From Eumeta japonica (lineage: Eukaryota > Arthropoda > Insecta > Lepidoptera > Psychidae): DNA of 64,000 bases. Position 1 is the first letter of the stretch. Every line of letters starts with the position of its first letter. A program made the translations under genes and the position numbers. Below, in pieces: positions 1,936 to 53,005 of the stretch. The notes under the pieces were generated by a model, which was not told where the DNA came from, ran no database searches, and saw nothing but the letters and a program-made list of their open reading frames with translations. The stretch lies in assembly GCA_005406025.1 (NCBI GenBank), contig BGZK01001036.1, positions 62,001 through 126,000 on the forward strand, in the 5' to 3' direction.

Positions 1936-3485
1936 GGTCAATCTGTATGATTCAACGACGGGGTGAAAAAACCTGATAAGTTCTCAAAACTGCTTGTCAG
2001 AGCAGCCTGAAATTCGTTTTGTTCTTGCACTGCGACCTTCCAGAACAAAGTTCATTCTTATTTATGTTTAATCGGTCAATAGATACGGAACGGTGTGAAT
2101 TTTTTTTTTTTTTGAGTGAATTGTTTGCAAAAGGCATTGTCTATCATTTCGGCCGGAGAGAGCTCACGGTAGCGGAGCGAACAAATTCCAAACTGGCGTT
2201 CATGTTTACGGTACACGGGTGTTCAGTCGCCCGGTGAGTTATTCTCGCTAACACCTTTTTTAGTAGCAGAGCGTTGTAGTCTTGCGCCGTTGCACTAAGT
2301 ACTAAAGAAGATATTTGCACAATCGTGACAAATGAAATGCTGCAATAGAAACGATGTTATAAGCGATTAATACATTAAACAATTTACACATATGAAGCAA
2401 ACATATTGATTGAAAAGTTATTCATTCCGTGAGAGGTGGAAGTTGGAAATATTTCTTTGGGAGTGTCGTCAACATGTTTACAGATGAAAGTTTAAAGACC
2501 CTTTAAATTCCCTTTTGCTTGAAAAGTCCAGCAATCGGTCGTCAAAACGTAGAATTAAGTCCCTGAAAACAATGTAGAATAACATTTATTATCACGTGAA
2601 GAATTGCGTGACCTAATTTTAAGCGACATCAACTAAAATGAACACTTTTAAGTCTGAATTAAAGAGAGTTAAGCCTCGGCTTGAGCTACGAGTCTTTGCA
2701 TTATAACCTGGCTTCGGTAATTGTCGCAAGTTAACAGAGCGTATGCACAATTCTTGTATAATATGGATCGTAGTCTGTTTGTCTGTCTGCGTAGGTAATC
2801 TCAGAAATTATTACAGGTCGTTTCGTATTAAAAAAATTAGCGGCCGTTCTTGTGTTTTCGATGTAAGGAGTATACCCATGCTGTACTAGGATGAACGGAA
2901 CGGAACGGAAGCGGATTTTGATCTAAATCATGACCAGTATTGAAATCGAGAGCGATTCCGGGATAAGTATCGAGTAAAACATGTACACAGAACAACGTGG
3001 AACAACTTACCGTCCGATTTGTGATGTATTTGAGGGTATGGCTTTGCCTTTCCTTGTCCTTTACTGAATGGATTTAATCATTTCATTTTTGCTTCAAGTG
3101 TCCTGCACTTGAATCGTCAAAGTTTGAAGTCGATGCCTGAAAACGAAATGAAAATTAACTATTTAATATTATGTGAATTACTAGATAGAATAACTTGCAA
3201 AAATCACTAAACGCTTTTACAAATTAATCCTATTAATAGGCGAAAAGGACTTCATAAGTGAACACTTATTTTTGTTTGAAATATATTTTCAGCAACTACT
3301 ACATTAACGGTAAAATCTAAAGGTTATCCTGAATTAATAATCAGTACTTACTAACCCTAATGAAATGTAAGTAAACGCTTAAGAAATCCGAGAGATACTT
3401 GAACGATCGTTTTATAAAGTCACGAATTTTGACGAAAATATTAAAAAATACAGTCGGGCAACTTTAGAGCGAGAACATACTGAAC

Positions 3486-3509
3486 GACTGACTGACTGAC
3501 TGACTGACT
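3486..3509. repeat. (GACT)6 microsatellite
   Basis: Six gact units, present at the same place with the same length in every unit (for example near 10,336, 17,226 and 24,102). Confidence 0.9.
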
Positions 3510-3763
3510 ATTCAAATTAAGGCGGTTCCAAACTGGACAGTTATTTGAAATGAATCATTAAACTAAAAAACAATGGTTAATCGAAACGAATAATTCATAA
3601 GAAAAAAAATAAAATAAAATGTGTATTATAAACGCGACCACGTCGGTCACGAGTAGTCCGTCCCTAAAGCGGGAAGTTTACGAAATATAATTATCAATAA
3701 GGACTGATTTCCTTACCGGCAAATAAGTAGGAAATAATTCCAGCTGTTTTCCACTAAGCGATG

Positions 3764-4731
3764 TCAAGTGTTGCAGGTCCCTCGGCAACTGGGACAAAAC
3801 CACTGTCCATCTGGAGGTGTGACTACCCCGACGCAAGTGAAATGGTACCACTGGTACCTACAGGTCTGAGCGTCACAACCTATCATCGTCTCTCCTTCTA
3901 TATTTTTTCCACAATAACACCATGGTGTTTCTCGTGGTGCATTGCTGGAAAAATATTTTTATCGATCAAAGTAAACAATTACATTTCGATGCACTCAATA
4001 TATCATTAGGCAAGTGGACAGTGAACAGTATGAAGACTTACTCTGGATGACTTTCTCTATCAGCCATTTCTGTGTCAGACTCACAGTCGGACGATTCAGA
4101 ATCACTGCTGTCGGATTTCTCTGAGGAAGAAGTTTCAGAGTCTGACGCGGCCGATTCCGAACTGCACTCACTCGAGGTATCGCTGCTGAATCGGTTCGGC
4201 TGCTGTGGCAGGACATTACATTTGTGGGCTCCTATTTGCCATTTCCTCAGAGGACAGTTGGGACATTGTTGGCTCTCCGTGCCGTGTCGCCAATATAAAT
4301 GCCCCAACAGCGTCTCGTAGTCTTCGAACCAGGCGCAGCATTTGAAGCAAGCGTACAGGACTCGAGACTGTAGAACAAGGAGTAATTGAAACGATAATTA
4401 ATAAGAACTTTGTAACAGCTCGTTCAAAATCATATAAGACAATAAGTAATAAAAATGCCAATGTCAAACAACTCATTGAATGCCATACGTAAAATTATAG
4501 TAATAAATTGGAATTATTCTTTTCATTTATCCGACTATTGTAAAAATCTTTTCATATTTCAAGGAAGTTATCAGAGAGTTGTGGTGAAACACGTAGGTAA
4601 CCGATATACAAACATAACAATGGATTTCCTAGACGTTGGCCGACGTTGAATATTAACATAATAGTAATGAATGCACTTGAGCATTGAGGAAAATCTAAAT
4701 CACATAAAATAAAATCAATCACCTTATGCAT
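3764..4731 (-). CDS. C2H2 zinc finger + acidic + PHD finger protein, copy 1
   Basis: Three exons on the minus strand: 4731-4723 (Met-His-Lys), 4367-4042 and 3944-3764 (stop TGA). Intron 1 (355 bp) runs from AAG/GTGATT to ctacag; intron 2 (97 bp) runs from GA/GTAAGT to ttccag. The phases join exactly (0/0, then 2+1), giving 171 residues. Residues 10-31 are a C2H2 finger with ligands C10, C13, H26 and H31 and the core F17 and L23 in place. C38, C41, H51 and C53 could bind a second zinc. Residues 64-110 are nearly all Ser, Asp and Glu. Residues 121-165 form a complete C4HC3 PHD finger (C121, C123, C135, C140, H146, C149, C162, C165), closest in pattern to ING proteins (MIGCD, WYHFTCVG, WFCPSC). 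W120, M132, D136 and W144 occupy the positions that read histone H3 Lys4 methylation in ING2. The ING N-terminal domain is absent. Nuclear chromatin binding is inferred. I do not recognise a named gene. Confidence 0.75.
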
Positions 4732-4786
4732 ACTGAGTGGCGTTCGAGAAGAGAGAGAAGAAATATCGAGCAGTGCACAGCGACGC

Positions 4787-4853
4787 GGAACTGACCACGG
4801 TCACAATCAGGGTTGGAATGACGTGAATATGACAAGTCGATGAGTGTTTTATA
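4787..4853 (-). promoter_or_regulatory. Core promoter of gene copy 1: TATA, Inr, DPE
   Basis: Reading the minus strand, TATAAAA lies at 4853-4847. An arthropod initiator TCATTC (consensus TCAKTY) follows at 4821-4816, putting +1 at 4819, 34 bases from the first T of the TATA box. A DPE match, AGTTCC, sits at +28 to +33 (4792-4787), the required spacing. An 88-base 5' UTR leads to the ATG at 4731. Three elements in register make this a convincing Pol II promoter, although no expression data are available. Confidence 0.7.
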
Positions 4854-5333
4854 CAGTTAGTTTTCGCTAAGGGATTAATGTCCATTGTCTATTTGACAAA
4901 CACGTCGTTAACAAAAGACAGCTTAATGGGTTATCGGAACGCAGCGCGATCGACGAGCGCAGCTAACGGTCTTTATTATGATTTCGATGCTTTCGCCGGT
5001 GTGAATTGTCTTATTTTTACTTAGTTTGAAAAAAATTGTGAACTATAATATTTCAGGAGAATTTTAATAAAAAAATCTCTTCCACGAGGTTCACGTTTTC
5101 GAAGTTACCATATCCTTAATTCTCGAAGGTATTTTTATTGACGAATCATCCTTATTTACCTAAGTTCTGTGTATTTAACGTGTGTATTGTATTTTTTTTT
5201 AATATTTTGTAGTTGTTCATAACTGTAACTATTTTTGCGCCCCTAAAATTCCGTTCATGCAATACATAATTATTCAAAAAGTGAAAAACATTTCATCGAA
5301 ATAAATAATTCATTTGTTGTGTGAATAACTTAC

Positions 5334-5480
5334 GGAAAAGAAGCTTTAGTTAGACACCGCTTGTCACATTCAGGACAATGCGTCGACAAAGGGCCTTAAC
5401 AGCTCCGAGTCTTCAGCCGCAAGAGCTCGCAGAAAAGACCTTTTAAACATGACCTTTTCACAGGCACGGAGCTTGCACAT
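5334..5480 (-). pseudogene. Possible zinc-finger exon relic, unit 1
   Basis: On the minus strand, a stretch ending at a GTAAGT donor (5333-5328) encodes CPECDKRCLTKASF, like the first half of a C2H2 finger. About 40 bases before it, gaagactcggagctgtt resembles gaagactacgagacgctgtt in exon 2 of the intact gene, and TGTCCTGAATGT resembles exon 2's TGTCCCAACTGT. The frame is interrupted between these blocks. It could be a decayed duplicate of exon 2 or an exon of an unseen upstream gene. Counterparts start near 12193 (unit 2) and in later units. Unit 7 has lost ctta at the donor (about 46,436). Confidence 0.35.
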
Positions 5481-6595
5481 TTCAGTACGAACACTGGTGT
5501 TTATTAAGCAATTCGAATTTCTCTCGTAAATTGGTGATTCGACGACATCTTAACAGAGAATTTTTAAAAGAGATTTAAATATAAATACGCTTAGAGTATT
5601 TCCAATGTCGTTCAATGCCTCATCAGACAGGTCTCTCGTCTGTCAGCCGTGCAATACCCAGAGGAATGTTTAAAAACTCAAAATTTTCTGGACACCATTT
5701 TCGCTTGATAATTTTTATATCATCTCTCGACATTTGGTGTCGGTCGACGCCAATTAAAATATAATCGGAAGTTGATCGTTTATTAGATTTTAACAAAACA
5801 GATATTTCAACCCTAAGGCGAAATTCAATGATAGATGTCGGGTCAGAGGTCACACAGTGACTAACCTAACCTAAGCTGAACATCGCGTTTCTTGAATACA
5901 ATTAAATATTGTCTATTATATTCGTTGTATACCTTTGAGTTTTGTTTTTGTATTCGCTTTTGAAAGTACGACGTCACACGCCGGTGCTATCTACGCTTTT
6001 CTGACATTTCCTGAGATTCTTCATTTTTCATTATGCATTTCTATGATTAGAATCTAATAGAAACCTTATCGTACAAATAATAAATAAAACTTACAAGGCG
6101 TAACTGAATTAACAGAAGTCACTTTGAAACAAGTTCCTGTAATAATAACGGCTATCATTTAAATCCTTATTAACGATAACAATGCGCGTCCGCGCCGCTT
6201 TGCAATAATCATTAAGAACTAACTGACTTTCGTTAGTGACGCTTTTCAAATTAGGTAATGAGCGTTATTCTTTATATGGAAATAGCACAGTGTTAAAGTA
6301 CTCTTGTTGTACTTTAAGGCACACCTACCTTGGCGCCTACCGTAGTGAGTTCAGAGTCACCGCGCAGTGCTCCACGACTCTTAGTTCTATTACGTATGCC
6401 TAGTTCAAAACGCATACGCAAAATGGTTTCTTTCCGTGTTTAATTACACGATGTCTCCTTTATTTTCATATAATTAAAAAAAAAAATTCTATCAGTTATT
6501 TGAAATCCTATATTAAGGTTTCTTATACTTGATGACAAAACGAATCCCTTACGGGATCACTCTCGTTCGAGTGTGTCTGTCTATTCATCTCTCAG

Positions 6596-6672
6596 AGGAT
6601 GTGAGGATCGCTTTGTTTACGTCGAGGTGGTCGTACCTCCAGATGGACATTGGTTCTGTCGCAGTAGTCGAG
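6596..6672 (+). pseudogene. Truncated PHD finger relic, unit 1 (inverted)
   Basis: The plus strand resembles the second half of the PHD exon of the gene. It reads gtacctccagatggacattg and then ggttctgtcgcag, where the intact exon reads acacctccagatggacagtg and then gttttgtcccag. In translation PPDGHWFC is kept, but the upstream Cys and His ligands and the last CPxC pair are lost (FCRSS). It therefore cannot fold as a zinc-binding PHD finger. It lies about 1.8 kb upstream of the gene, in the opposite orientation. An inverted duplicate that has decayed is the simplest reading. Confidence 0.6.
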
Positions 6673-7164
6673 TTAATCTCGATACCTACTCGCTGTTACA
6701 TAGCAGAAATCAGTATGACTCACTCAACCTTGTTTGCAAAACATATGAGGAATATTGAATATTTATTTATCGATGAGCAGGAGTGTTTTATTATTATTTT
6801 TTTTCAATATAATGTCTAGCGTCTTTTGTAGCATAATAAAAGACGATACAAGGAATACGATGCACTTATTTACATTTGATCGTAGGTTAGGCTTATTTTA
6901 TACTTAAGGCACATCACACATCGAACGATATGTTCCTCTATAGTTATTGTGTGTTTATTTATTTCCTTTGGTCAACATATGCATATTTATAGACAAGTTT
7001 GCATCAAAATTTTGTTAGTATTCCTTTTACCGACTGCGATGAAGCAAAAGGTTGATTATATTAATGTTTATATGTATGGATGCTCCTCTCTAGCGTCGCT
7101 CCTCGTGAACCGATTTTGATAAATGACGTCGTCGACGTAGCAAGGAAGAGTAATGATTCCGACA

Positions 7165-7213
7165 CCCTATGTACGTATGTATGTATGTATGTATGAATGA
7201 ATGGATGGATGGA
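7165..7213. repeat. TATG / AATG / GATG microsatellite
   Basis: A run of tatg repeats passes into aatg and then ggat repeats directly before the SINE. It is present in every complete unit. A microsatellite abutting a retroelement copy is common in Lepidoptera. Confidence 0.8.
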
Positions 7214-7290
7214 GGTTCGGTGATCGCCCAGTAGTTAAGAGCGTCGCCTTGGACGCAGCAGGTATCGTGTTTGAACCTCACCATGGACGG
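7214..7290 (+). mobile_element. tRNA-like SINE fragment
   Basis: The sequence has an A-box-like segment (tgatcgcccagtagttaag, 7221-7239) and, about 30 bases later, a B-box-like segment (gtgtttgaacctc, 7267-7279), as in tRNA-derived SINE heads. No tRNA fold with a proper acceptor stem is evident, so it is not called a tRNA gene. The same element starts at 14088, 20980, 27830, 34667, 41510 and 48301, and a degraded form lies near 54,575-54,640. Confidence 0.5.
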
Positions 7291-10200: not shown

Positions 10201-10613
10201 ACCCTAATGAAATGTAAGTAAACGCTTAAGAAATCCGAGAGATACTTGAACGATCGTTTTTATAAAGTCACGAATTTTGACGAAAAATATTAAAAAAATA
10301 CAGTCGGGCAACTTTAGAGCGAGAACATACTGAACGACTGACTGACTGACTGACTGACTATTCAAATTAAGGCGGTTCCAAACTGGACAGTTATTTGAAA
10401 TGAATCATTAAACTAAAAAACAATGGTTAATCGAAACGAATAATTCATAAGAAAAAAAATAAAATAAAATGTGTATTATAAACGCGACCACGTCGGTCAC
10501 GAGTAGTCCGTCCCTAAAGCGGGAAGTTTACGAAATATAATTATCAATAAGGACTGATTTCCTTACCGGCAAATAAGTAGGAAATAATTCCAGCTGTTTT
10601 CCACTAAGCGATG

Positions 10614-11587
10614 TCAAGTGTTGCAGGTCCCTCGGCAACTGGGACAAAACCACTGTCCATCTGGAGGTGTGACTACCCCGACGCAAGTGAAATGGTACCA
10701 CTGGTACCTACAGGTCTGAGCGTCACAACCTATCATCGTCTCTCCTTCTATATTTTTTCCACAATAACACCATGGTGTTTCTCGTGGTGCATTGCTGGAA
10801 AAAAATATTTTTTATCGATCAAAGTAAACAATTACATTTCGATGCACTCAATATATCATTAGGCAAGTGGACAGTGAACAGTATGAAGACTTACTCTGGA
10901 TGACTTTCTCTATCAGCCATTTCTGTGTCAGACTCACAGTCGGACGATTCAGAATCACTGCTGTCGGATTTCTCTGAGGAAGAAGTTTCAGAGTCTGACG
11001 CGGCCGATTCCGAACTGCACTCACTCGAGGTATCGCTGCTGAATCGGTTCGGCTGCTGTGGCAGGACATTACATTTGTGGGCTCCTATTTGCCATTTCCT
11101 CAGAGGACAGTTGGGACATTGTTGGCTCTCCGTGCCGTGTCGCCAATATAAATGCCCCAACAGCGTCTCGTAGTCTTCGAACCAGGCGCAGCATTTGAAG
11201 CAAGCGTACAGGACTCGAGACTGTAGAACAAGGAGTAATTGAAACGATAATTAATAAGAACTTTTGTAACAGCTCGTTCAAAATCATATAAGACAATAAG
11301 TAATAAAAAAATGCCAATGTCAAACAACTCATTGAATGCCATACGTAAAATTATAGTAATAAATTGGAATTATTCTTTTCATTTATCCGACTATTGTAAA
11401 AATCTTTTCATATTTCAAGGAAGTTATCAGAGAGTTGTGGTGAAACACGTAGGTAACCGATATACAAACATAACAATGGATTTCCTAGACGTTGGCCGAC
11501 GTTGAATATTAACATAATAGTAATGAATGCACTTGAGCATTGAGGAAAATCTAAATCACATAAAATAAAATCAATCACCTTATGCAT
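10614..11587 (-). CDS. C2H2 zinc finger + acidic + PHD finger protein, copy 2
   Basis: Exons 11587-11579, 11220-10895 and 10794-10614. The predicted 171-residue protein is the same as copy 1, with all zinc ligands, both donors and both acceptors kept. The introns differ only in homopolymer lengths (longer A/T runs beside the exon 3 acceptor). The 5' UTR has one more 3-base repeat (gagaagaagaaa) than copy 1. Confidence 0.75.
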
Positions 11588-11645
11588 ACTGAGTGGCGTT
11601 CGAGAAGAGAGAGAAGAAGAAATATCGAGCAGTGCACAGCGACGC

Positions 11646-11712
11646 GGAACTGACCACGGTCACAATCAGGGTTGGAATGACGTGAATATGACAAGTCGAT
11701 GAGTGTTTTATA
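11646..11712 (-). promoter_or_regulatory. Core promoter of gene copy 2
   Basis: TATA at 11712-11706, predicted +1 at 11678, with the same Inr and DPE spacing as copy 1. Confidence 0.7.
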
Positions 11713-13463: not shown

Positions 13464-13540
13464 AGGATGTGAGGATCGCTTTGTTTACGTCGAGGTGGTC
13501 GTACCTCCAGATGGACATTGGTTCTGTCGCAGTAGTCGAG
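13464..13540 (+). pseudogene. Truncated PHD finger relic, unit 2
   Basis: Same relic as at 6596-6672, unchanged in translation. Confidence 0.6.
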
Positions 13541-17505: not shown

Positions 17506-18481
17506 TCAAGTGTTGCAGGTCCCTCGGCAACTGGGACAAAACCACTGTCCATCTGGAGGTGTGACTACCCCGACGCAAGTGAAATGGTACCACTGGTACC
17601 TACAGGTCTGAGCGTCACAACCTATCATCGTCTCTCCTTCTATATTTTTTCCACAATAACACCATGGTGTTTCTCGTGGTGCATTGCTGGAAAAAAATAT
17701 TTTTTATCGATCAAAGTAAACAATTACATTTCGATGCACTCAATATATCATTAGGCAAGTGGACAGTGAACAGTATGAAGACTTACTCTGGATGACTTTC
17801 TCTATCAGCCATTTCTGTGTCAGACTCACAGTCGGACGATTCAGAATCACTGCTGTCGGATTTCTCTGAGGAAGAAGTTTCAGAGTCTGACGCGGCCGAT
17901 TCCGAACTGCACTCACTCGAGGTATCGCTGCTGAATCGGTTCGGCTGCTGTGGCAGGACATTACATTTGTGGGCTCCTATTTGCCATTTCCTCAGAGGAC
18001 AGTTGGGACATTGTTGGCTCTCCGTGCCGTGTCGCCAATATAAATGCCCCAACAGCGTCTCGTAGTCTTCGAACCAGGCGCAGCATTTGAAGCAAGCGTA
18101 CAGGACTCGAGACTGTAGAACAAGGAGTAATTGAAACGATAATTAATAAGAACTTTTGTAACAGCTCGTTCAAAATCATATAAGACAATAAGTAATAAAA
18201 AAAAATGCCAATGTCAAACAACTCATTGAATGCCATACGTAAAATTATAGTAATAAATTGGAATTATTCTTTTCATTTATCCGACTATTGTAAAAATCTT
18301 TTCATATTTCAAGGAAGTTATCAGAGAGTTGTGGTGAAACACGTAGGTAACCGATATACAAACATAACAATGGATTTCCTAGACGTTGGCCGACGTTGAA
18401 TATTAACATAATAGTAATGAATGCACTTGAGCATTGAGGAAAATCTAATTCACATAAAATAAAATCAATCACCTTATGCAT
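17506..18481 (-). CDS. C2H2 zinc finger + acidic + PHD finger protein, copy 3
   Basis: Exons 18481-18473, 18112-17787 and 17686-17506. Coding sequence, splice signals and stop are as in copy 1. Intron 1 has a longer A run near 18,199 and a private a-to-t change (aaatctaatt) near 18,450. Confidence 0.75.
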
Positions 18482-20360: not shown

Positions 20361-20437
20361 AGGATGTGAGGATCGCTTTGTTTACGTCGAGGTGGTCGTA
20401 CCTCCAGATGGACATTGGTTCTGTCGCAGTAGTCGAG
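20361..20437 (+). pseudogene. Truncated PHD finger relic, unit 3
   Basis: Same relic as at 6596-6672, unchanged in translation. Confidence 0.6.
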
Positions 20438-24380: not shown

Positions 24381-25351
24381 TCAAGTGTTGCAGGTCCCTC
24401 GGCAACTGGGACAAAACCACTGTCCATCTGGAGGTGTGACTACCCCGACGCAAGTGAAATGGTACCACTGGTACCTACAGGTCTGAGCGTCACAACCTAT
24501 CATCGTCTCTCCTTCTATATTTTTTCCACAATAACACCATGGTGTTTCTCGTGGTGCATTGCTGGAAAAATATTTTTATCGATCAAAGTAAACAATTACA
24601 TTTCGATGCACTCAATATATCATTAGGCAAGTGGACAGTGAACAGTATGAAGACTTACTCTGGATGACTTTCTCTATCAGCCATTTCTGTGTCAGACTCA
24701 CAGTCGGACGATTCAGAATCACTGCTGTCGGATTTCTCTGAGGAAGAAGTTTCAGAGTCTGACGCGGCCGATTCCGAACTGCACTCACTCGAGGTATCGC
24801 TGCTGAATCGGTTCGGCTGCTGTGGCAGGACATTACATTTGTGGGCTCCTATTTGCCATTTCCTCAGAGGACAGTTGGGACATTGTTGGCTCTCCGTGCC
24901 GTGTCGCCAATATAAATGCCCCAACAGCGTCTCGTAGTCTTCGAACCAGGCGCAGCATTTGAAGCAAGCGTACAGGACTCGAGACTGTAGAACAAGGAGT
25001 AATTGAAACGATAATTAATAAGAACTTTTGTAACAGCTCGTTCAAAATCATATAAGACAATAAGTAATAAAAAAATGCCAATGTCAAACAACTCATTGAA
25101 TGCCATACGTAAAATTATAGTAATAAATTGGAATTATTCTTTTCATTTATCCGACTATTGTAAAAATCTTTTCATATTTCAAGGAAGTTATCAGAGAGTT
25201 GTGGTGAAACACGTAGGTAACCGATATACAAACATAACAATGGATTTCCTAGACGTTGGCCGACGTTGAATATTAACATAATAGTAATGAATGCACTTGA
25301 GCATTGAGGAAAATCTAAATCACATAAAATAAAATCAATCACCTTATGCAT
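24381..25351 (-). CDS. C2H2 zinc finger + acidic + PHD finger protein, copy 4
   Basis: Exons 25351-25343, 24984-24659 and 24561-24381. Intact. Intron 2 has the short-homopolymer form also seen in copies 1 and 7. Confidence 0.75.
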
Positions 25352-25409: not shown

Positions 25410-25476
25410 GGAACTGACCACGGTCACAATCAGGGTTGGAATGACGTGAATATGACAAGTCGATGGGTGTTTTATA
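25410..25476 (-). promoter_or_regulatory. Core promoter of gene copy 4
   Basis: TATA at 25476-25470, predicted +1 at 25442. It carries the single-base change next to the TATA box (cgatgggtg on the plus strand) shared by copies 4-8. Confidence 0.7.
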
Positions 25477-27216
25477 CAGTTAGTTTTCGCTAAGGGATTA
25501 ATGTCCATTGTCTATTTGACAAACACGTCGTTAACAAAAGACAGCTTAATGGGTTATCGGAACGCAGCGCGATCGACGAGCGCAGCTAACGGTCTTTATT
25601 ATGATTTCGATGCTTTCGCCGGTGTGAATTGTCTTATTTTTACTTAGTTTGAAAAAAATTGTGAACTATAATATTTCAGGAGAATTTTAATAAAAAAATC
25701 TCTTCCACGAGGTTCACGTTTTCGAAGTTACCATATCCTTAATTCTCGAAGGTATTTTTATTGACGAATCATCCTTATTTACCTAAGTTCTGTGTATTTA
25801 ACGTGTGTATTGTATTTTTTAATATTTTGTAGTTGTTCATAACTGTAACTATTTTGCGCCCTAAAATTCCGTTCATGCAATACATAATTATTCAAAAGTG
25901 AAAACATTTCATCGAAATAAATAATTCATTTGTTGTGTGAATAACTTACGGAAAAGAAGCTTTAGTTAGACACCGCTTGTCACATTCAGGACAATGCGTC
26001 GACAAAGGGCCTTAACAGCTCCGAGTCTTCAGCCGCAAGAGCTCGCAGAAAAGACCTTTAAACATGACCTTTTCACAGGCACGGAGCTTGCACATTTCAG
26101 TACGAACACTGGTGTTTATTAAGCAATTCGAATTTCTCTCGTAAATTGGTGATTCGACGACATCTTAACAGAGAATTTTTAAAAGAGATTTAAATATAAA
26201 TACGCTTAGAGTATTTCCAATGTCGTTCAATGCCTCATCAGACAGGTCTCTCGTCTGTCAGCCGTGCAATACCCAGAGGAATGTTTAAAAACTCAAAATT
26301 TTCTGGACACCATTTTCGCTTGATAATTTTTATATCATCTCTCGACATTTGGTGTCGGTCGACGCCAATTAAAATATAATCGGAAGTTGATCGTTTATTA
26401 GGATTTTAACAAAACAGATATTTCAACCCTAAGGCGAAATTCAATGATAGATGTCGGGGTCAGAGGTCACACAGTGACTAACCTAACCTAAGCTGAACAT
26501 CGCGTTTCTTGAATACAATTAAATATTGTCTATTATATTCGTTGTATACCTTTGAGTTTTGTTTTTTGTATTCGCTTTTGGAAAGTACGACGTCACACGC
26601 CGGTGCTATCTACGCTTTTCTGACATTTCCTGAGATTCTTCATTTTTCATTATGCATTTCTATGATTAGAATCTAATAGAAACCTTATCGTACAAATAAT
26701 AAATAAAAACTTACAAGGCGTAACTGAATTAACAGAAGTCACTTTGAAACAAGTTCCTGTAATAATAACGGCTATCATTTAAATCCTTATTAACGATAAC
26801 AATGCGCGTCCGCGCCGCTTTGCAATAATCATTAAGAACTAACTGACTTTCGTTAGTGACGCTTTTTCAAATTAGGTAATGAGCGTTATTCTTTATATGG
26901 AAATAGCACAGTGTTAAAGTACTCTTGTTGTACTTTAAGGCACACCTACCTTGGCGCCTACCGTAGTGAGTTCAGAGTCACCGCGCAGTGCTCCACGACT
27001 CTTAGTTCTATTACGTATGCCTAGTTCAAAACGCATACGCAAAATGGTTTCTTTCCGTGTTTAATTACACGATGTCTCCTTTATTTTCATATAATTAAAA
27101 AAAAAAATTCTATCAGTTATTTGAAATCCTATATTAAGGTTTCTTATACTTGATGACAAAACGAATCCCTTACGGGATCACTCTCGTTCGAGTGTGTCTG
27201 TCTATTCATCTCTCAG

Positions 27217-27293
27217 AGGATGTGAGGATCGCTTTGTTTACGTCGAGGTGGTCGTACCTCCAGATGGACATTGGTTCTGTCGCAGTAGTCGAG
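27217..27293 (+). pseudogene. Truncated PHD finger relic, unit 4
   Basis: Same relic as at 6596-6672, unchanged in translation. Confidence 0.6.
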
Positions 27294-30200
27294 TTAATCT
27301 CGATACCTACTCGCTGTTACATAGCAGAAATCAGTATGACTCACTCAACCTTGTTTGCAAAACATATGAGGAATATTGAATATTTATTTATCGATGAGCA
27401 GGAGTGTTTTATTATTATTTTTTCAATATAATGTCTAGCGTCTTTTGTAGCATAATAAAAGACGATACAAGGAATACGATGCACTTATTTACATTTGATC
27501 GTAGGTTAGGCTTATTTTATACTTAAGGCACATCACACATCGAACGATATGTTCCTCTATAGTTATTGTGTGTTTATTTATTTTTGGTCAACATATGCAT
27601 ATTTATAGACAAGTTTGCATCAAAATTTTGTTAGTATTCCTTTTACCGACTGCGATGAAGCAAAGGGTTGATTATATTAATGTTTATATGTATGGATGCT
27701 CCTCTCTAGCGTCGCTCCTCGTGAACCGATTTTGATAAATGACGTCGTCGACGTAGCAAGGAAGAGTAATGATTCCGACACCCTATGTACGTATGTATGT
27801 ATGTATGTATGAATGAATGGATGGATGGAGGTTCGGTGATCGCCCAGTAGTTAAGAGCGTCGCCTTGGACGCAGCAGGTATCGTGTTTGAACCTCACCAT
27901 GGACGGATCAGATAGATGAACGAACTGATTAAACAGTTTGCATTCACACTTCGTTTGTACTCTCCTTTGAATACGCGCAGCTAAGCTCGCTTATTTTGAG
28001 TGATTCATTGCTAATGTTGTACGACAATTAGCAATAAAATAGCAAATTCTTGGAAATACTTAAGTTCAGTTTGAAATATGTTATTTGGACTACACAAAAC
28101 TATTTCAACGTGTCCAACTCATCCAATACATCATTAATATTTGATTTTAATTTTTTATTTTAATGTAAAGTCATTCGGAGTAATATGCATGTTAATGTGA
28201 AACATTATACACGGAAACATTTAACAATATTGTTTTAGAAACGGTGGGCGCGAATTGTGTCTACACTTAAAAAGACGCAAAAGCGTCATGTAGATTTACA
28301 TATATAAATATATTTCGATACGAAATCGGGTTACTTTTTCAGCTTGTCCTCGATCCTGTTCTTTATTTCTCTCCGTTTTCTAATTAGTCGAGCGTGTCGT
28401 GGTCACAAGATCGAATGTAGATTTTTTTCGAACGTCCTTGTTCGTTAGTATCGTGACACATCTACAACATAGCGGGACTTTCCGTATGATGAAAGGAAAA
28501 GAAGTTTTGTGAAGTTTTTTTTTTTTTTTTTTTGATATTTGTAGGACAGTTTAAGTAGTGTTGAGCATCGGGCTTGAGTTTGACATCGACATGAATAACA
28601 GGAATATTGAGAAGTGAAGTCGAATCGAACAATGAAAACATTATCGTAAGAAACGTCATTCGGTTATTGGTGGTCAATCATTTATATTCGTTGATTTGAA
28701 AAGCAGTGTATTCTTTGCCGTCGAATATATACAAAGAAAAAAAAAAAACTATATTTATAATAAAGTTATGGTACTTTTGATCAAATCAATACAAATAATA
28801 AATGGCTGTTCTCAGCCAACAGAGCTTTGAGCATAGATGGCATAAACGACTGCAGGCATTTATTTTACATTTTTTAGGGTTCTGTTGAATTGATTTCAAC
28901 CGATTAGAGATATTTTGTGAACATATTTTTAATTTTAAATTTGTTGGGTTTATTTCTATTATAGAATCGAAATGCACGAAGAGATAAATTTGTGTGAAAT
29001 CGACGTGTTTGGTTCACTTTTAACATCAAACAAAGAAAACACCGACACAATATAAATCGCATATTAATATATAATATAATATGTTGCGTCGATTTGCTTT
29101 CGTGTTCTTTGAGAACGTTTCGAACGTTTCGTAAGCTATAGCCGTATATTTCGATTCCCTGTTGTACCTGGCGTCCGCCAGCGGCGCCGGTCACGGAGGC
29201 ATCAGTACTGCCTCCGAACCGGAAGCAAACGAATTCCAATCCTCAGCATGGATAAATTGACCAGTCAGTTTCTAACTTGATCCGAAAGATAGCCTCGTGC
29301 CTCGGAGAACAGGTTATTCCGTCAGCCTCGGTCACTGTTACTGCGTTGTCGACTACGATCATAAGGAGTTTTACGGCCGTACCTGGTCAATCTGTATGAT
29401 TCAACGACGGGGTGAAAAAACCTGATAAGTTCTCAAAACTGCTTGTCAGAGCAGCCTGAAATTCGTTTTGTTCTTGCACTGCGACCTTCCAGAACAAAGT
29501 TCATTCTTATTTATGTTTAATCGGTCAATAGATACGGAACGGTGTGAATTTTTTTTGAGTGAATTGTTTGCAAAAGGCATTGTCTATCATTTCGGCCGGA
29601 GAGCTCACGGTAGCGGAGCGAACAAATTCCAAACTGGCGTTCATGTTTACGGTACACGGGTGTTCAGTCGCCCGGTGAGTTATTCTCGCTAACACCTTTT
29701 AGTAGCAGAGCGTTGTCGTCTTGCGCCGTTGCACTAAGTACTAAAGAAGATATTTGCACAATCGTGACAAATGAAATGCTGCAATAGAAACGATGTTATA
29801 AGCGATTAATACATTAAACAATTTACACATATGAAGCAAACATATTGATTGAAAAGTTATTCATTCCGTGAGAGGTGGAAGTTGGAAATATTTCTTTGGG
29901 AGTGTCGTCAACATGTTTACAGATGAAAGTTTAAAGACCCTTTAAATTCCCTTTTGCTTGAAAAGTCCAGCAATCGGTCGTCAAAACGTAGAATTAAGTC
30001 CCTGAAAACAATGTAGAATAACATTTATTATCACGTGAAGAATTGCGTGACCTAATTTTAAGCGACATCAACTAAAATGAACACTTTTAAGTCTGAATTA
30101 AAGAGAGTTAAGCCTCGGCTTGAGCTACGAGTCTTTGCATTATAACCTGGCTTCGGTAATTGTCGCAAGTTAACAGAGCGTATGCACAATTCTTGTATAA

Positions 30201-31207: not shown

Positions 31208-32181
31208 TCAAGTGTTGCAGGTCCCTCGGCAACTGGGACAAAACCACTGTCCATCTGGAGGTGTGACTACCCCGACGCAAGTGAAATGGTACCACTGGTA
31301 CCTACAGGTCTGAGCGTCACAACCTATCATCGTCTCTCCTTCTATATTTTTTCCACAATAACACCATGGTGTTTCTCGTGGTGCATTGCTGGAAAAAAAT
31401 ATTTTTTATCGATCAAAGTAAACAATTACATTTCGATGCACTCAATATATCATTAGGCAAGTGGACAGTGAACAGTATGAAGACTTACTCTGGATGACTT
31501 TCTCTATCAGCCATTTCTGTGTCAGACTCACAGTCGGACGATTCAGAATCACTGCTGTCGGATTTCTCTGAGGAAGAAGTTTCAGAGTCTGACGCGGCCG
31601 ATTCCGAACTGCACTCACTCGAGGTATCGCTGCTGAATCGGTTCGGCTGCTGTGGCAGGACATTACATTTGTGGGCTCCTATTTGCCATTTCCTCAGAGG
31701 ACAGTTGGGACATTGTTGGCTCTCCGTGCCGTGTCGCCAATATAAATGCCCCAACAGCGTCTCGTAGTCTTCGAACCAGGCGCAGCATTTGAAGCAAGCG
31801 TACAGGACTCGAGACTGTAGAACAAGGAGTAATTGAAACGATAATTAATAAGAACTTTTGTAACAGCTCGTTCAAAATCATATAAGACAATAAGTAATAA
31901 AAAAATGCCAATGTCAAACAACTCATTGAATGCCATACGTAAAATTATAGTAATAAATTGGAATTATTCTTTTCATTTATCCGACTATTGTAAAAATCTT
32001 TTCATATTTCAAGGAAGTTATCAGAGAGTTGTGGTGAAACACGTAGGTAACCGATATACAAACATAACAATGGATTTCCTAGACGTTGGCCGACGTTGAA
32101 TATTAACATAATAGTAATGAATGCACTTGAGCATTGAGGAAAATCTAAATCACATAAAATAAAATCAATCACCTTATGCAT
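31208..32181 (-). CDS. C2H2 zinc finger + acidic + PHD finger protein, copy 5
   Basis: Exons 32181-32173, 31814-31489 and 31388-31208. Intact, with the same predicted protein. Intron 2 has the long-homopolymer form. Confidence 0.75.
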
Positions 32182-34045: not shown

Positions 34046-34122
34046 AGGATGTGAGGATCGCTTTGTTTACGTCGAGGTGGTCGTACCTCCAGATGGACAT
34101 TGGTTCTGTCGCAGTAGTCGAG
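34046..34122 (+). pseudogene. Truncated PHD finger relic, unit 5
   Basis: Same relic as at 6596-6672, unchanged in translation. Confidence 0.6.
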
Positions 34123-38068: not shown

Positions 38069-39041
38069 TCAAGTGTTGCAGGTCCCTCGGCAACTGGGAC
38101 AAAACCACTGTCCATCTGGAGGTGTGACTACCCCGACGCAAGTGAAATGGTACCACTGGTACCTACAGGTCTGAGCGTCACAACCTATCATCGTCTCTCC
38201 TTCTATATTTTTTCCACAATAACACCATGGTGTTTCTCGTGGTGCATTGCTGGAAAAAAATATTTTTTATCGATCAAAGTAAACAATTACATTTCGATGC
38301 ACTCAATATATCATTAGGCAAGTGGACAGTGAACAGTATGAAGACTTACTCTGGATGACTTTCTCTATCAGCCATTTCTGTGTCAGACTCACAGTCGGAC
38401 GATTCAGAATCACTGCTGTCGGATTTCTCTGAGGAAGAAGTTTCAGAGTCTGACGCGGCCGATTCCGAACTGCACTCACTCGAGGTATCGCTGCTGAATC
38501 GGTTCGGCTGCTGTGGCAGGACATTACATTTGTGGGCTCCTATTTGCCATTTCCTCAGAGGACAGTTGGGACATTGTTGGCTCTCCGTGCCGTGTCGCCA
38601 ATATAAATGCCCCAACAGCGTCTCGTAGTCTTCGAACCAGGCGCAGCATTTGAAGCAAGCGTACAGGACTCGAGACTGTAGAACAAGGAGTAATTGAAAC
38701 GATAATTAATAAGAACTTTTGTAACAGCTCGTTCAAAATCATATAAGACAATAAGTAATAAAAAAATGCCAATGTCAAACAACTCATTGAATGCCATACG
38801 TAAAATTATAGTAATAAATTGGAATTATTCTTTTCATTTATCCGACTATTGTAAAATCTTTTCATATTTCAAGGAAGTTATCAGAGAGTTGTGGTGAAAC
38901 ACGTAGGTAACCGATATACAAACATAACAATGGATTTCCTAGACGTTGGCCGACGTTGAATATTAACATAATAGTAATGAATGCACTTGAGCATTGAGGA
39001 AAATCTAAATCACATAAAATAAAATCAATCACCTTATGCAT
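38069..39041 (-). CDS. C2H2 zinc finger + acidic + PHD finger protein, copy 6
   Basis: Exons 39041-39033, 38675-38350 and 38249-38069. Intact. Intron 1 lacks one A of a run near 38,853; the coding sequence is unchanged. Confidence 0.75.
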
Positions 39042-39099
39042 ACTGAGTGGCGTTCGAGAAGAGAGAGAAGAAGAAATATCGAGCAGTGCACAGCGACGC

Positions 39100-40893: not shown

Positions 40894-40970
40894 AGGATGT
40901 GAGGATCGCTTTGTTTACGTCGAGGTGGTCGTACCTCCAGATGGACATTGGTTCTGTCGCAGTAGTCGAG
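40894..40970 (+). pseudogene. Truncated PHD finger relic, unit 6
   Basis: Same relic as at 6596-6672, unchanged in translation. Confidence 0.6.
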
Positions 40971-44882: not shown

Positions 44883-45853
44883 TCAAGTGTTGCAGGTCCC
44901 TCGGCAACTGGGACAAAACCACTGTCCATCTGGAGGTGTGACTACCCCGACGCAAGTGAAATGGTACCACTGGTACCTACAGGTCTGAGCGTCACAACCT
45001 ATCATCGTCTCTCCTTCTATATTTTTTCCACAATAACACCATGGTGTTTCTCGTGGTGCATTGCTGGAAAAATATTTTTATCGATCAAAGTAAACAATTA
45101 CATTTCGATGCACTCAATATATCATTAGGCAAGTGGACAGTGAACAGTATGAAGACTTACTCTGGATGACTTTCTCTATCAGCCATTTCTGTGTCAGACT
45201 CACAGTCGGACGATTCAGAATCACTGCTGTCGGATTTCTCTGAGGAAGAAGTTTCAGAGTCTGACGCGGCCGATTCCGAACTGCACTCACTCGAGGTATC
45301 GCTGCTGAATCGGTTCGGCTGCTGTGGCAGGACATTACATTTGTGGGCTCCTATTTGCCATTTCCTCAGAGGACAGTTGGGACATTGTTGGCTCTCCGTG
45401 CCGTGTCGCCAATATAAATGCCCCAACAGCGTCTCGTAGTCTTCGAACCAGGCGCAGCATTTGAAGCAAGCGTACAGGACTCGAGACTGTAGAACAAGGA
45501 GTAATTGAAACGATAATTAATAAGAACTTTTGTAACAGCTCGTTCAAAATCATATAAGACAATAAGTAATAAAAAAATGCCAATGTCAAACAACTCATTG
45601 AATGCCATACGTAAAATTATAGTAATAAATTGGAATTATTCTTTTCATTTATCCGACTATTGTAAAAATCTTTTCATATTTCAAGGAAGTTATCAGAGAG
45701 TTGTGGTGAAACACGTAGGTAACCGATATACAAACATAACAATGGATTTCCTAGACGTTGGCCGACGTTGAATATTAACATAATAGTAATGAATGCACTT
45801 GAGCATTGAGGAAAATCTAAATCACATAAAATAAAATCAATCACCTTATGCAT
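44883..45853 (-). CDS. C2H2 zinc finger + acidic + PHD finger protein, copy 7
   Basis: Exons 45853-45845, 45486-45161 and 45063-44883. The coding exons are unchanged, although small deletions begin immediately upstream in the 5' UTR (near 45,863) and continue for about 1.8 kb. The 5' UTR is about 8 bases shorter than in copy 6. Confidence 0.75.
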
Positions 45854-45903
45854 ACTGAGTGGCAGAGAGAGAAGAAGAAATATCGAGCAGTGCACAGCGA
45901 CGC

Positions 45904-45970
45904 GGAACTGACCACGGTCACAATCAGGGTTGGAATGACGTGAATATGACAAGTCGATGGGTGTTTTATA
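45904..45970 (-). promoter_or_regulatory. Core promoter of gene copy 7
   Basis: TATA at 45970-45964, predicted +1 at 45936. The promoter is unchanged, but the 5' UTR below it has lost about 8 bases. Confidence 0.7.
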
Positions 45971-47684
45971 CAGTTAGTTTTCGCTAAGGGATTAATGTCC
46001 ATTGTCTATTTGACAAACACGTCGTTAACAAAGACAGCTTAATGGGTTATCGGAACGCAGCGCGATCGACGAGCGCAGCTAACGGTCTTTATTATGATTT
46101 CGATGCTTTCGCCGGTGTGAATTGTCTTATTTTTACTTAGTTTGAAAAAATTGTGAACTATAATATTTCAGGAGAATTTTAATAAAAAATCTCTTCCACG
46201 AGGTTCACGTTTTCGAAGTTACCATATCCTTAATTCTCGAAGGTATTTTTTTGACGAATCATCCTTATTTACCTAAGTTCTGTGTATTTAACGTGTGTAT
46301 TGTATTTTTTAATATTTTGTAGTTGTTCATAACTGTAACTATTTTGCGCCCTAAAATTCCGTTCATGCAATACATAATTATTCAAAAGTGAAAAACATTT
46401 CATCGAAATAAATAATTCATTTGTTGTGTGAATAACGGAAAAGAAGCTTTAGTTAGACACCGCTTGTCACATTCAGGACAATGCGTCGACAAAGGGCCTT
46501 AACAGCTCCGAGTCTTCAGCCGCAAGAGCTCAGAAAAGACCTTTTAAACATGACCTTTTCACACACGGAGCTTGCACATTTCAGTACGAACACTGGTGTT
46601 TATTAAGCAATTCAATTTCTCTCGTAAATTGGTGATTCGACGACATCTTAACAGAGAATTTTTAAAAGAGATTTAAATATAAATACGCTTAGAGTATTTC
46701 CAATGTCGTTCAATGCCTCATCAGACAGGTCTCTCGTCTGTCAGCCGTGCAATACCAGAGGAATGTTTAAAACTCAAAATTTTCTGGACACCATTTTCGC
46801 TTGATAATTTTATATCATCTCTCGACATTTGGTGTCGGTCGACGCAATTAAAATATAATCGGAAGTTGATCGTTTATTAGGATTTTAACAAAACAGATAT
46901 TTCAACCCTAAGGCGAAATTCAATGATAGATGTCGGGGTCAGAGGTCACACAGTGACTAACCTAACCTAAGCTGAACATCGCGTTTCTTGAATACAATTA
47001 AATATTGTCTATTATATTCGTTGTATACCTTTGAGTTTTGTTTTTGTATTCGCTTTTGAAAGTACGACGTCACACGCCGGTGCTATCTACGCTTTTCTGA
47101 CATTTCCTGAGATTCTTCATTTTTCATTATGCATTTCTATGATTAGAATCTAATAGAAACCTTATCGTACAAATAATAAATAAAACTTACAAGGCGTAAC
47201 TGAATTAACAGAAGTCACTTTGAAACAAGTTCCTGTAATAATAACGGCTATCATTTAAATCCTTATTAACGATAACAATGCGCGTCCGCGCCGCTTTGCA
47301 ATAATCATTAAGAACTAACTGACTTTCGTTAGTGACGCTTTTCAAATTAGGTAATGAGCGTTATTCTTTATATGGAAATAGCACAGTGTTAAAGTACTCT
47401 TGTTGTACTTTAAGGCACACCTACCTTGGCGCCTACCGTAGTGAGTTCAGAGTCACCGCGCAGTGCTCCACGACTCTTAGTTCTATTACGTATGCCTAGT
47501 TCAAAACGCATACGCAAAATGGTTTCTTTCCGTGTTTAATTACACGATGTCTCCTTTATTTTCATATAATTAAAAAAAATTCTATCAGTTATTTGAAATC
47601 CTATATTAAGGTTTCTTATACTTGATGACAAAACGAATCCCGGGATCACTCTCGTTCGAGTGTGTCTGTCTATTCATCTCTCAG

Positions 47685-47761
47685 AGGATGTGAGGATCGC
47701 TTTGTTTACGTCGAGGTGGTCGTACCTCCAGATGGACATTGGTTCTGTCGCAGTAGTCGAG
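47685..47761 (+). pseudogene. Truncated PHD finger relic, unit 7
   Basis: Same relic, although the sequence just upstream (near 47,640) has lost 5 bases in this unit. In the diverged edge copy a further degraded trace is visible at about 54,145-54,215. Confidence 0.55.
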
Positions 47762-50700
47762 TTAATCTCGATACCTACTCGCTGTTACATAGCAGAAATC
47801 AGTATGACTCACTCAACCTTGTTTGCAAAACATATGAGGAATATTGAATATTTATTTATCGATGAGCAGGAGTGTTTTATTATTATTTTTTCAATATAAT
47901 GTCTAGCGTCTTTTGTAGCATAATAAAAGACGATACAAGGAATACGATGCACTTATTTACATTTGATCGTAGGTTAGGCTTATTTTATACTTAAGGCACA
48001 TCACACATCGAACGATATGTTCCTCTATAGTTATTGTGTGTTTATTTATTTCCTTTGGTCAACATATGCATATTTATAGACAAGTTTGCATCAAAATTTT
48101 GTTAGTATTCCTTTTACCGACTGCGATGAAGCAAAGGGTTGATTATATTAATGTTTATATGTATGGATGCTCCTCTCTAGCGTCGCTCCTCGTGAACCGA
48201 TTTTGATAAATGACGTCGTCGACGTAGCAAGGAAGAGTAATGATTCCGACACCCTATGTACGTATGTATGTATGTATGTATGAATGAATGGATGGATGGA
48301 GGTTCGGTGATCGCCCAGTAGTTAAGAGCGTCGCCTTGGACGCAGCAGGTATCGTGTTTGAACCTCACCATGGACGGATCAGATAGATGAACGAACTGAT
48401 TAAACAGTTTGCATTCACACTTCGTTTGTACTCTCCTTTGAATACGCGCAGCTAAGCTCGCTTATTTTGAGTGATTCATTGCTAATGTTGTACGACAATT
48501 AGCAATAAAATAGCAAATTCTTGGAAATACTTAAGTTCAGTTTGAAATATGTTATTTGGACTACACAAAACTATTTCAACGTGTCCAACTCATCCAATAC
48601 ATCATTAATATTTGATTTTAATTTTTTTATTTTAATGTAAAGTCATTCGGAGTAATATGCATGTTAATGTGAAACATTATACACGGAAACATTTAACAAT
48701 ATTGTTTTAGAAACGGTGGGCGCGAATTGTGTCTACACTTAAAAAGACGCAAAAGCGTCATGTAGATTTACATATATAAATATATTTCGATACGAAATCG
48801 GGTTACTTTTTCAGCTTGTCCTCGATCCTGTTCTTTATTTCTCTCCGTTTTCTAATTAGTCGAGCGTGTCGTGGTCACAAGATCGAATGTAGATTTTTTT
48901 TCGAACGTCCTTGTTCGTTAGTATCGTGACACATCTACAACATAGCGGGACTTTCCGTATGATGAAAGGAAAAGAAGTTTTGTGAAGTTTTTTTTTTGAT
49001 ATTTGTAGGACAGTTTAAGTAGTGTTGAGCATCGGGCTTGAGTTTGATATCGACATGAATAACAGGAATATTGAGAAGTGAAGTCGAATCGAACAATGAA
49101 ACAAATCACGAAAATATTATCATCGAAACGTCATTCGGTTATTGCTGGTCAATCATTTATATTCGTTGATTTGAAAAGCAGTGTATTCTTTGCCGTCGAA
49201 TATATACAAAGAAAAAAAAAAAACTATATTTATAATAAAGTTATGGTACTTTTGATCAAATCAATACAAATAATAAATGGCTGTTCTCAGCCAACAGAGT
49301 TTTGAGCATAGATGGCATAAACGACTGCAGGCATTTATTTTACATTTTTTAGGGTTCTGTTGAATTGATTTCAACCGATTAGAGATATTTTGTGAACATA
49401 TTTTAATTTTAAATTTGTTGGGTTTATTTCTATTATAGAATCGAAATGCACGAAGAGATAAATTTGTGTGAAATCGACGTGTTTGGTTCACTTTTAACAT
49501 CAAACAAAGAAAAACACCGACACAATATAAATCGCATATTAATATATAATATAATATGTTGCGTCGATTTGCTTTCGTGTTGTTTGAGAACGTTTCGAAC
49601 GTTTCGTACGCTATAGCCGTATATTTCGATTCCCTGTTGTCCCTGGCGTCCGCGGCGCCGGTCACGGAGGCATCAGTACTGCCTCCGAACCGGAAGCAAA
49701 CGAATTCCAATCCTCAGCATGGATAAATTGACCAGTCAGTTTCTAACTTGATCCGAAAGATAGCCTCGTGCCTCGGAGAACAGGTTATTCCGTCAGCCTC
49801 GGTCACTGTTACTGCGTTGTCGACTACGATCATAAGGAGTTTTACGGCCGTACCTGGTCAATCTGTATGATTCAACGACGGGGTGAAAAAACCTGATAAG
49901 TTCTCAAAACTGCTTGTCAGAGCAGCCTGAAATTCGTTTTGTTCTTGCACTGCGACCTTCCAGAACAAAGTTCATTCTTATTTATGTTTAATCGGTCAAT
50001 AGATACGGAACGGTGTGAATTTTTTTTTTTTTTGAGTGAATTGTTTGCAAAAGGCATTGTCTATCATTTCGGCCGGAGAGAGCTCACGGTAGCGGAGCGA
50101 ACAAATTCAAACTGGCGTTCATGTTTACGGCACACGGGTGTTCAGTCGCCCGGTGAGTTATTCTCGCTAACACCTTTTTTAGTAGCAGAGCGTTGTAGTC
50201 TTGCGCCGTTGCACTAAGTACTAAAGAAGATATTTGCACAATCGTGACAAATGAAATGCTGCAATAGAAACGATGTTATAAGCGATTAATACATTAAACA
50301 ATTTACACATATGAAGCAAACATATTGATTGAAAAGTTATTCATTCCGTGAGAGGTGGAAGTTGGAAATATTTCTTTGGGAGTGTCGTCAACATGTTTAC
50401 AGATGAAAGTTTAAAGACCCTTTAAATTCCCTTTTTGCTTGAAAAGTCCAGCAATCGGTCGTCAAAACGTAGAATTAAGTCCCTGAAAACAATGTAGAAT
50501 AACATTTATTATCACGTGAAGAATTGCGTGACCTAATTTTAAGCGACATCAACTAAAATGAACACTTTTAAGTCTGAATTAAAGAGAGTTAAGCCTCGGC
50601 TTGAGCTACGAGTCTTTGCATTATAACCTGGCTTCGGTAATTGTCGCAAGTTAACAGAGCGTATGCACAATTCTTGTATAATATGGATCGTAGTCTGTTT

Positions 50701-51686
50701 GTCTGTCTGCGTAGGTAATCTCAGAAATTATTACAGGTCGTTTCGTATTAAAAAAATTAGCGGCCGTTCTTGTGTTTTCGATGTAAGGAGTATACCCATG
50801 CTGTACTAGGATGAACGGAACGGAACGGAAGCGGATTTTTTGATCTAAATCATGACCAGTATTGAAATCGAGAGCGATTCCGGGATAAGTATCGAGTAAA
50901 AACATGTACACAGAACAACGTGGAACAACTTACCGTCCGATTTGTGATGTATTTGAGGGTATGGCTTTGCCTTTCCTTGTCCTTTACTGAATGGATTTAA
51001 TCATTTCATTTTTTGCTTCAAGTGTCCTGCACTTGAATCGTCAAAGTTTGAAGTCGATGCCTGAAAACGAAATGAAAATTAACTATTTAATATTATGTGA
51101 ATTACTAGATAGAATAACTTGCAAAATCACTAAACGCTTTTACAAATTAATCCTATTAATAGGCGAAAAGGACTTCATAAGTGAACACTTATTTTGTTTG
51201 AAATATATTTTTCAGCAACTACTACATTAACGGTAAAATCTAAAGGTTATCCTGAATTAATAATCAGTACTTACTAACCCTAATGAAATGTAAGTAAACG
51301 CTTAAGAAATCCGAGAGATACTTGAACGATCGTTTTTATAAAGTCACGAATTTTGACGAAAAATATTAAAAAAATACAGTCGGGCAACTTTAGAGCGAGA
51401 ACATACTGAACGACTGACTGACTGACTGACTGACTATTCAAATTAAGGCGGTTCCAAACTGGACAGTTATTTGAAATGAATCATTAAACTAAAAAACAAT
51501 GGTTAATCGAAACGAATAATTCATAAGAAAAAAATAAAATAAAATGTATTATAAACGCGACCACGTCGGTCACGAGTAGTCCGTCCCTAAAGCGGGAAGT
51601 TTACGAAATATAATTATCAATAAGGACTGATTTCCTTACCGGCAAATAAGTAGGAAATAATTCCAGCTGTTTTCCACTAAGCGATG

Positions 51687-52659
51687 TCAAGTGTTGCAGG
51701 TCCCTCGGCAACTGGGACAAAACCACTGTCCATCTGGAGGTGTGACTACCCCGACGCAAGTGAAATGGTACCACTGGTACCTACAGGTCTGAGCGTCACA
51801 ACCTATCATCGTCTCTCCTTCTATATTTTTTCCACAATAACACCATGGTGTTTCTCGTGGTGCATTGCTGGAAAAAAATATTTTTTATCGATCAAAGTAA
51901 ACAATTACATTTCGATGCACTCAATATATCATTAGGCAAGTGGACAGTGAACAGTATGAAGACTTACTCTGGATGACTTTCTCTATCAGCCATTTCTGTG
52001 TCAGACTCACAGTCGGACGATTCAGAATCACTGCTGTCGGATTTCTCTGAGGAAGAAGTTTCAGAGTCTGACGCGGCCGATTCCGAACTGCACTCACTCG
52101 AGGTATCGCTGCTGAATCGGTTCGGCTGCTGTGGCAGGACATTACATTTGTGGGCTCCTATTTGCCATTTCCTCAGAGGACAGTTGGGACATTGTTGGCT
52201 CTCCGTGCCGTGTCGCCAATATAAATGCCCCAACAGCGTCTCGTAGTCTTCGAACCAGGCGCAGCATTTGAAGCAAGCGTACAGGACTCGAGACTGTAGA
52301 ACAAGGAGTAATTGAAACGATAATTAATAAGAACTTTTGTAACAGCTCGTTCAAAATCATATAAGACAATAAGTAATAAAAAAATGCCAATGTCAAACAA
52401 CTCATTGAATGCCATACGTAAAATTATAGTAATAAATTGGAATTATTCTTTTCATTTATCCGACTATTGTAAAATCTTTTCATATTTCAAGGAAGTTATC
52501 AGAGAGTTGTGGTGAAACACGTAGGTAACCGATATACAAACATAACAATGGATTTCCTAGACGTTGGCCGACGTTGAATATTAACATAATAGTAATGAAT
52601 GCACTTGAGCATTGAGGAAAATCTAAATCACATAAAATAAAATCAATCACCTTATGCAT
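51687..52659 (-). CDS. C2H2 zinc finger + acidic + PHD finger protein, copy 8
   Basis: Exons 52659-52651, 52293-51968 and 51867-51687. This is the last copy of the array and is intact. It sits just inside the sharp boundary at 53006, beyond which the unit is diverged, so gene and promoter are the last well-conserved part of the array. Confidence 0.75.
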
Positions 52660-52717
52660 ACTGAGTGGCGTTCGAGAAGAGAGAGAAGAAGAAATATCGA
52701 GCAGTGCACAGCGACGC

Positions 52718-52784
52718 GGAACTGACCACGGTCACAATCAGGGTTGGAATGACGTGAATATGACAAGTCGATGGGTGTTTTATA
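52718..52784 (-). promoter_or_regulatory. Core promoter of gene copy 8
   Basis: TATA at 52784-52778, predicted +1 at 52750. Fully preserved, about 220 bases before the unit becomes diverged at 53006. Confidence 0.7.
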
Positions 52785-53005
52785 CAGTTAGTTTTCGCTA
52801 AGGGATTAATGTCCATTGTCTATTTGACAAACACGTCGTTAACAAAAGACAGCTTAATGGGTTATCGGAACGCAGCGCGATCGACGAGCGCAGCTAACGG
52901 TCTTTATTATGATTTCGATGCTTTCGCCGGTGTGAATTGTCTTATTTTTACTTAGTTTGAAAAAAATTGTGAACTATAATATTTCAGGAGAATTTTAATA
53001 AAAAA

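Follow-up and report, generated by a model that had tools for sequence, protein, structure and literature searches.

Why should a moth genome carry eight complete, intron-bearing copies of a gene for a putative chromatin reader, head to tail and nearly identical? The question is raised by a 64,000-nucleotide stretch of DNA from the bagworm Eumeta japonica (hereafter the window), which spans positions 62,001 to 126,000 of contig BGZK01001036.1 (C1029 below; 223,924 bases). The genome searched comprised 701.7 Mb in 5067 contigs. We consider it moderately probable that a gene resembling readers of histone H3 trimethylated at lysine 4 (H3K4me3) was shortened from a large C2H2/PHD gene and is kept as a homogenised array that raises the dose of its product.

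Exact 24-mers recurred across the window at lags of 6.79-6.89 kb, and one middle unit, when aligned to the window, matched 1918-53962 in eight copies, the last of them with 92.6% identity overall. The stretch of near-identity, as read from the sequence, runs from about 1936 to 53005 and holds a minus-strand array of head-to-tail units of 6.79-6.89 kb with eight genes. These observations confirm the tandem amplification of units of about 6.8-6.9 kb at 1936-53005 that the original prediction had described, coordinates included. It had also spoken of "most of an eighth" unit; the eighth gene is indeed complete, but the upstream half of the unit is diverged and not missing. When aligned by unit, copies 1-7 showed pairwise identities of 99.68-99.99% at aligned bases. 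Copy 8 was 86.9-87.1% identical to copies 1-7 overall and 99-100% identical in its gene-bearing and downstream half, and its 14 farthest-upstream segments of 250 columns showed 48-80% identity, mostly 63-80%. The units are complete and the interior is more alike than the edges, as in a concerted tandem gene array. Short dispersed repeats were also seen within the unit at 26319-26600, 28154-28307 and 28906-29029, and these recur elsewhere in the genome.

The eight gene copies are located as follows.

3764 to 4731, minus strand: gene copy 1, exons 4731-4723, 4367-4042 and 3944-3764; best match for EVAR_57534_1
10614 to 11587, minus strand: gene copy 2, exons 11587-11579, 11220-10895 and 10794-10614
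17506 to 18481, minus strand: gene copy 3, exons 18481-18473, 18112-17787 and 17686-17506
24381 to 25351, minus strand: gene copy 4, exons 25351-25343, 24984-24659 and 24561-24381; TATAAA at 25476
31208 to 32181, minus strand: gene copy 5, exons 32181-32173, 31814-31489 and 31388-31208
38069 to 39041, minus strand: gene copy 6, exons 39041-39033, 38675-38350 and 38249-38069
44883 to 45853, minus strand: gene copy 7, exons 45853-45845, 45486-45161 and 45063-44883
51687 to 52659, minus strand: gene copy 8, exons 52659-52651, 52293-51968 and 51867-51687; best match for EVAR_57541_1

In all eight copies, exon 1 has 9 nucleotides (nt; encoding MHK), exon 2 has 326 nt and exon 3 has 181 nt; both introns are bounded by GT-AG, the stop codon is intact, and a TATAAA lies 117-125 nt ahead of the ATG. 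The earlier claim of eight intact three-exon copies, each with a promoter-like TATA box, was thus borne out, and its choice of Lepidoptera as the group to search fits the host. All 516 columns of the 516-nt coding sequence agree across the copies, and one identical product of 171 amino acids is encoded. Searches of the assembly with the PHD exon and the finger exon found the array gene eight times genome-wide, always on C1029; the PHD-exon search gave 12 matches, four of which lay outside the array at 46-50% identity. Copy 1 alone matched the tail of the deposited model EVAR_57534_1 at 100% over its full length, as copy 8 alone did for EVAR_57541_1, and the deposited annotation would hold eight models if each copy received one tag. 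In a deposited model, gene copy 8 is joined to an N-terminal fragment at 60714-61085 (minus strand), which we take to be Mariner-like; the fused gene model, P0051, carries a PF17906 entry.

Judging from its sequence, the product is a short protein in which a C2H2-like finger, accompanied by a CC/HC module (HLYWRHGTES...), is joined through an acidic, Ser-rich linker to a C-terminal PHD finger of the ING type. The PHD finger was detected in Pfam at E 2.4e-5, just over the cut-off. Among the PDB sequence matches (E up to 0.001), 20 of 25 were PHDs of the ING, Yng or Pho23 type, four were TAF3 and one was NSD3, the best being 2qic (E 4.4e-14). Furthermore, the predicted fold of a relative from Plodia found its best PDB matches in the PHDs of ING4, ING1-like, ING3 and ING5 (2vnf and 7zmx among the top; TMt 0.84-0.85). 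In the ING3 PHD, Tyr, Ser, Met and Trp surround the trimethyl-lysine, and Trp, Asp and Cys lie near Arg2 (PMC5000080). In an alignment read against this account, the aromatic residue, Met, Asp and both Trp of the H3K4me3 pocket are kept, the aromatic being Trp in Eumeta and Tyr or Phe in the other aligned proteins. Since most pocket positions are kept, the full-length form is likely to read H3K4me3. The ING-type PHD of the original prediction was therefore supported by sequence matches, predicted fold and pocket positions alike.

The array product resembles ING1-5 and Yng1/2 in its C-terminal PHD sequence, in the predicted fold, and in the pocket aromatic, Met, Asp and both Trp. It differs from them in its C2H2-like finger and CC/HC module, and no ING domain was found when 13 family members were scanned, which together matched 10 Pfam families at E up to 0.1; we therefore did not file the protein as an ING. 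The N-terminal part, comprising the finger and the CC/HC module, is conserved as strongly as the PHD, so the protein is not the single-domain chromatin reader that it had been taken for.

Nor is the gene an isolated oddity, as had been supposed. Protein searches retained 8 of 40, 7 of 110 and 54 of 1090 candidates as relatives, and the family comprises 54 proteins, two of which are Eumeta models of the array. Names are attached to 29 rows from 19 species, which we take to be all Lepidoptera; the contigs of the other 25 rows measure 1.0-3.6 kb and the frame in them is unbroken, as would be expected of transcripts. The array product has the HLYWRHGTES..C..C....W....H.C module plus PHD of this uncharacterised lepidopteran C2H2-PHD family, and across 46 aligned proteins the ligands of finger and PHD vary little or not at all. 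Its relatives, named 'ING4-like', 'ING1-like', 'uncharacterized' or 'hypothetical', are two-part proteins, nearly all of them 29-41% identical to the Eumeta product; they are represented by one to four rows per species, whereas Eumeta has eight identical copies. Two members show features of their own: a QEAPV-type repeat lies between the finger and the PHD of the Ostrinia furnacalis relative (P0034), and the Spodoptera frugiperda model (P0014) has extra partial PHD pieces. No paper on the C2H2-PHD family was found among the open-access papers listed, as judged by their titles and the opening of their abstracts, subscription papers being outside that search.

Several rows per species were found in Diatraea, Chilo, Leptidea, Pieris and Mythimna separata, with four of Diatraea on one contig. 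In a 40-row tree, three Diatraea rows formed a clade (99/98) inside a Chilo-Diatraea clade, and two Leptidea rows (100/99) and two Pieris rows (98/88) were paired. The end branch of the Eumeta array gene is long, at 1.88 changes per column against a median of 0.16. Other long end branches belong to a large Eumeta protein described below (C868, 4.11), Spodoptera (1.13), Ostrinia (0.92) and lgn7 (0.74). The tree placed the Eumeta gene beside Choristoneura and Cydia with 83-89% bootstrap, which is probably long-branch attraction.

A parent-like gene, C868, was found in the same genome. Its frame is unbroken over 1773 amino acids from stop to stop and encodes several C2H2 fingers, with a PHD at the C-terminus; with this protein as the sole database sequence, the family profile scored it at E 1.7e-32. 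The two proteins are colinear: the finger module (HLFWKHGTES in C868) with the CC/HC module after it is 33% identical over 51 amino acids, a Ser-rich stretch follows, and the ING-type PHD is 49% identical over 51 amino acids. The C868 protein differs in being about ten times longer and in its cluster of several C2H2 fingers, in place of which the 171-residue product fits one C2H2-like finger and one CC/HC module; no array of C868 was seen. This comparison suggests that the short array gene descends from the large multi-C2H2/PHD gene by loss of much of its length. A second relative of the large gene was noted at L027 (C3232:8001-18000), with its frame split by introns, decay or read errors.

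How old the array may be was judged from the surrounding sequence and from relics inside the units, which are listed here.

53006 to 55900, no strand assigned: decayed array continuation, comprising the upstream half of unit 8 and then the start of a further unit (55846-55900)
C1029 45777 to 47340 (L013), strand not stated: decayed unit remnants left of the array, about 17 kb from it
6617-6672, 13485-13540, 20382-20437, 27238-27293, 34067-34122, 40915-40970 and 47706-47761, plus strand: inverted PHD-exon relics of 56 bp in units 1-7, upstream of the gene

On the right, the flank at 52601-55595 matched the unit in 67.9% of columns with gaps counted, or about 64% by an arithmetic estimate that omits its near-identical first 405 bases, and the start of the next unit was re-entered at 55846-55900 with 81.5% identity. 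On the left, a remnant at C1029:45777-46496, about 17 kb from the array edge, showed 65-74% identity and was colinear across the unit junction; a reversed-sequence control for this comparison gave no match. A whole-genome search with the downstream half of the unit gave nine matches, all on C1029, namely the eight in the array and the left relic (piece 46085-46276). With the upstream half, 40 matches were scored and 264 further candidates lay beyond these; seven full copies and the diverged one were on C1029, and the other 32 of the 40 were short and dispersed. No gene was seen in the flanking remnants. Decayed unit remnants on both sides, together with the near-identical interior, point to a repeated locus of long standing, with an interior that has been homogenised in recent times. 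The relics within the units, 82% identical to the PHD exon, share an exact run of at most 15 nt with the coding sequence; one frame of the copy at 27238 still encodes VEVVVPPDGHWFCRSSR. They are a sign of an older inverted copy.

Taken together, these findings are consistent with the following course of events. A large multi-C2H2/PHD gene would have been shortened to the short gene, as the colinear similarity suggests, and amplification in Eumeta would then have given eight complete transcription units. Unequal exchange or gene conversion may keep the copies alike while the edge remnants decay, which would account for the identity pattern. The product would dock on H3K4me3 via its PHD and on DNA or a partner via its N-terminal fingers. 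Since all eight products are identical, the array would raise the dose of one protein and not its diversity.

Several observations weigh against this reading. In two deposited gene models (P0001 and P0051), splicing removes the latter half of the PHD, so that the reader would be broken. The C2H2 finger is weak in Pfam (E 0.23, under the cut-off), and its zinc ligands were assigned by reading the sequence; for the Plodia relative, confidence in the predicted model is confined to the PHD, and the model is poor outside it (mean pLDDT, the predicted local distance difference test, 71.3; predicted TM-score 0.39); and the pocket Ser described for ING3 is not clearly kept. The identity of the parent and the direction of shortening are unproven, and the Ser-rich match to C868 is of low complexity. 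In the tree, two Chilo rows were unresolved and did not form a clade within the Chilo-Diatraea clade.

The invariance of the coding sequence bears on the main rival, neutral amplification by unequal crossing over, in which extra copies would be tolerated without a dosage function. Among 6347 segments of the unit shaped like exons 2 and 3, 93 were equally free of any variation and 2033 were free of substitutions. Substitution-free segments are thus common in the unit, and the invariance is only suggestive of selection on the copies. Nevertheless, no frame, splice site or TATA box is disrupted in any of the eight copies, and the remnants suggest a lasting repeated locus, although they hold no visible gene. 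We regard neutral amplification as possible but doubtful.

It is unlikely that the array is an artefact or a miscount, in which assembly multiplied one real unit or a few, or shortened a longer array, over the 51 kb of near-identical sequence. For Eumeta variegata, the account of the published assembly gives 6.56 Gbp of nanopore reads with a read N50 of 15 kb, assembled with Canu and Pilon into 724 Mb (PMC6488591). By our own division of these figures the nanopore coverage is about 9x, so the exact copy number across a near-identical array is not secured. As expected from reads of this kind, 62 of the 82 between-unit indels of 1-2 bases sit in homopolymers. Copies 3/5 (99.91%) and 4/6 (99.90%) are alike as a repeated pair would be, but 2/3 (99.99%) and 2/5 (99.93%) are as close or closer. 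Among the 22 ungapped variable columns, substitutions unite the non-neighbouring copies 4 and 6 in four and copies 4, 6 and 7 in three. Shared substitutions and indels of at least four columns group the copies in several different ways, unlike random errors, which counts against a pure assembly artefact. The decayed remnants on both sides represent repeated structure independent of the recent copies. Moreover, assemblers collapse repeats more often than they multiply them.

TSPY, HINTW and Stellate are sex-linked or germline conflict amplicons, and by analogy the Eumeta copies, perhaps Z-linked, might serve to increase dosage in an arms race, which we consider improbable. The long end branch of the Eumeta gene fits this idea, but other long end branches exist and that of Eumeta may reflect an early-diverging lineage. 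The several rows per species, grouped by species in Diatraea, Leptidea and Pieris, would fit as well, but those of Leptidea and Pieris could be alleles or assembly duplicates. Each of units 1-7 also carries the inverted PHD-exon relic, but its exact sharing with the coding sequence is short. In the accessible text of one study, three other Psychidae were shown to lack a W chromosome and Eumeta is not named; W linkage is unlikely if Eumeta resembles them (PMC6947638). Highly improbable, finally, is a germ-line dosage amplicon in a W-less moth, in which an H3K4me3 reader that evolves fast and descends from a large zinc-finger chromatin protein would long have been kept uniform and the inverted PHD relic might be a source of antisense RNA directed at its own gene, in the style of Stellate and its suppressor.

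A dosage-raising array of a shortened reader-like gene thus remains our preferred reading. Homogenised tandem gene arrays include ribosomal DNA, histone repeats, TSPY, HINTW and Stellate, and the Eumeta array shares with them complete head-to-tail units that are near-identical inside and decayed at the edges; it differs in that the gene is a small lepidopteran one resembling chromatin readers. It is therefore an array of a known kind, here for an unstudied lepidopteran family. In the 19 named lepidopteran species, that family consists of short chromatin-reader-like proteins with conserved zinc ligands and several duplications, and the Eumeta array is a setting in which one could test how the amount of a histone-mark reader matters.

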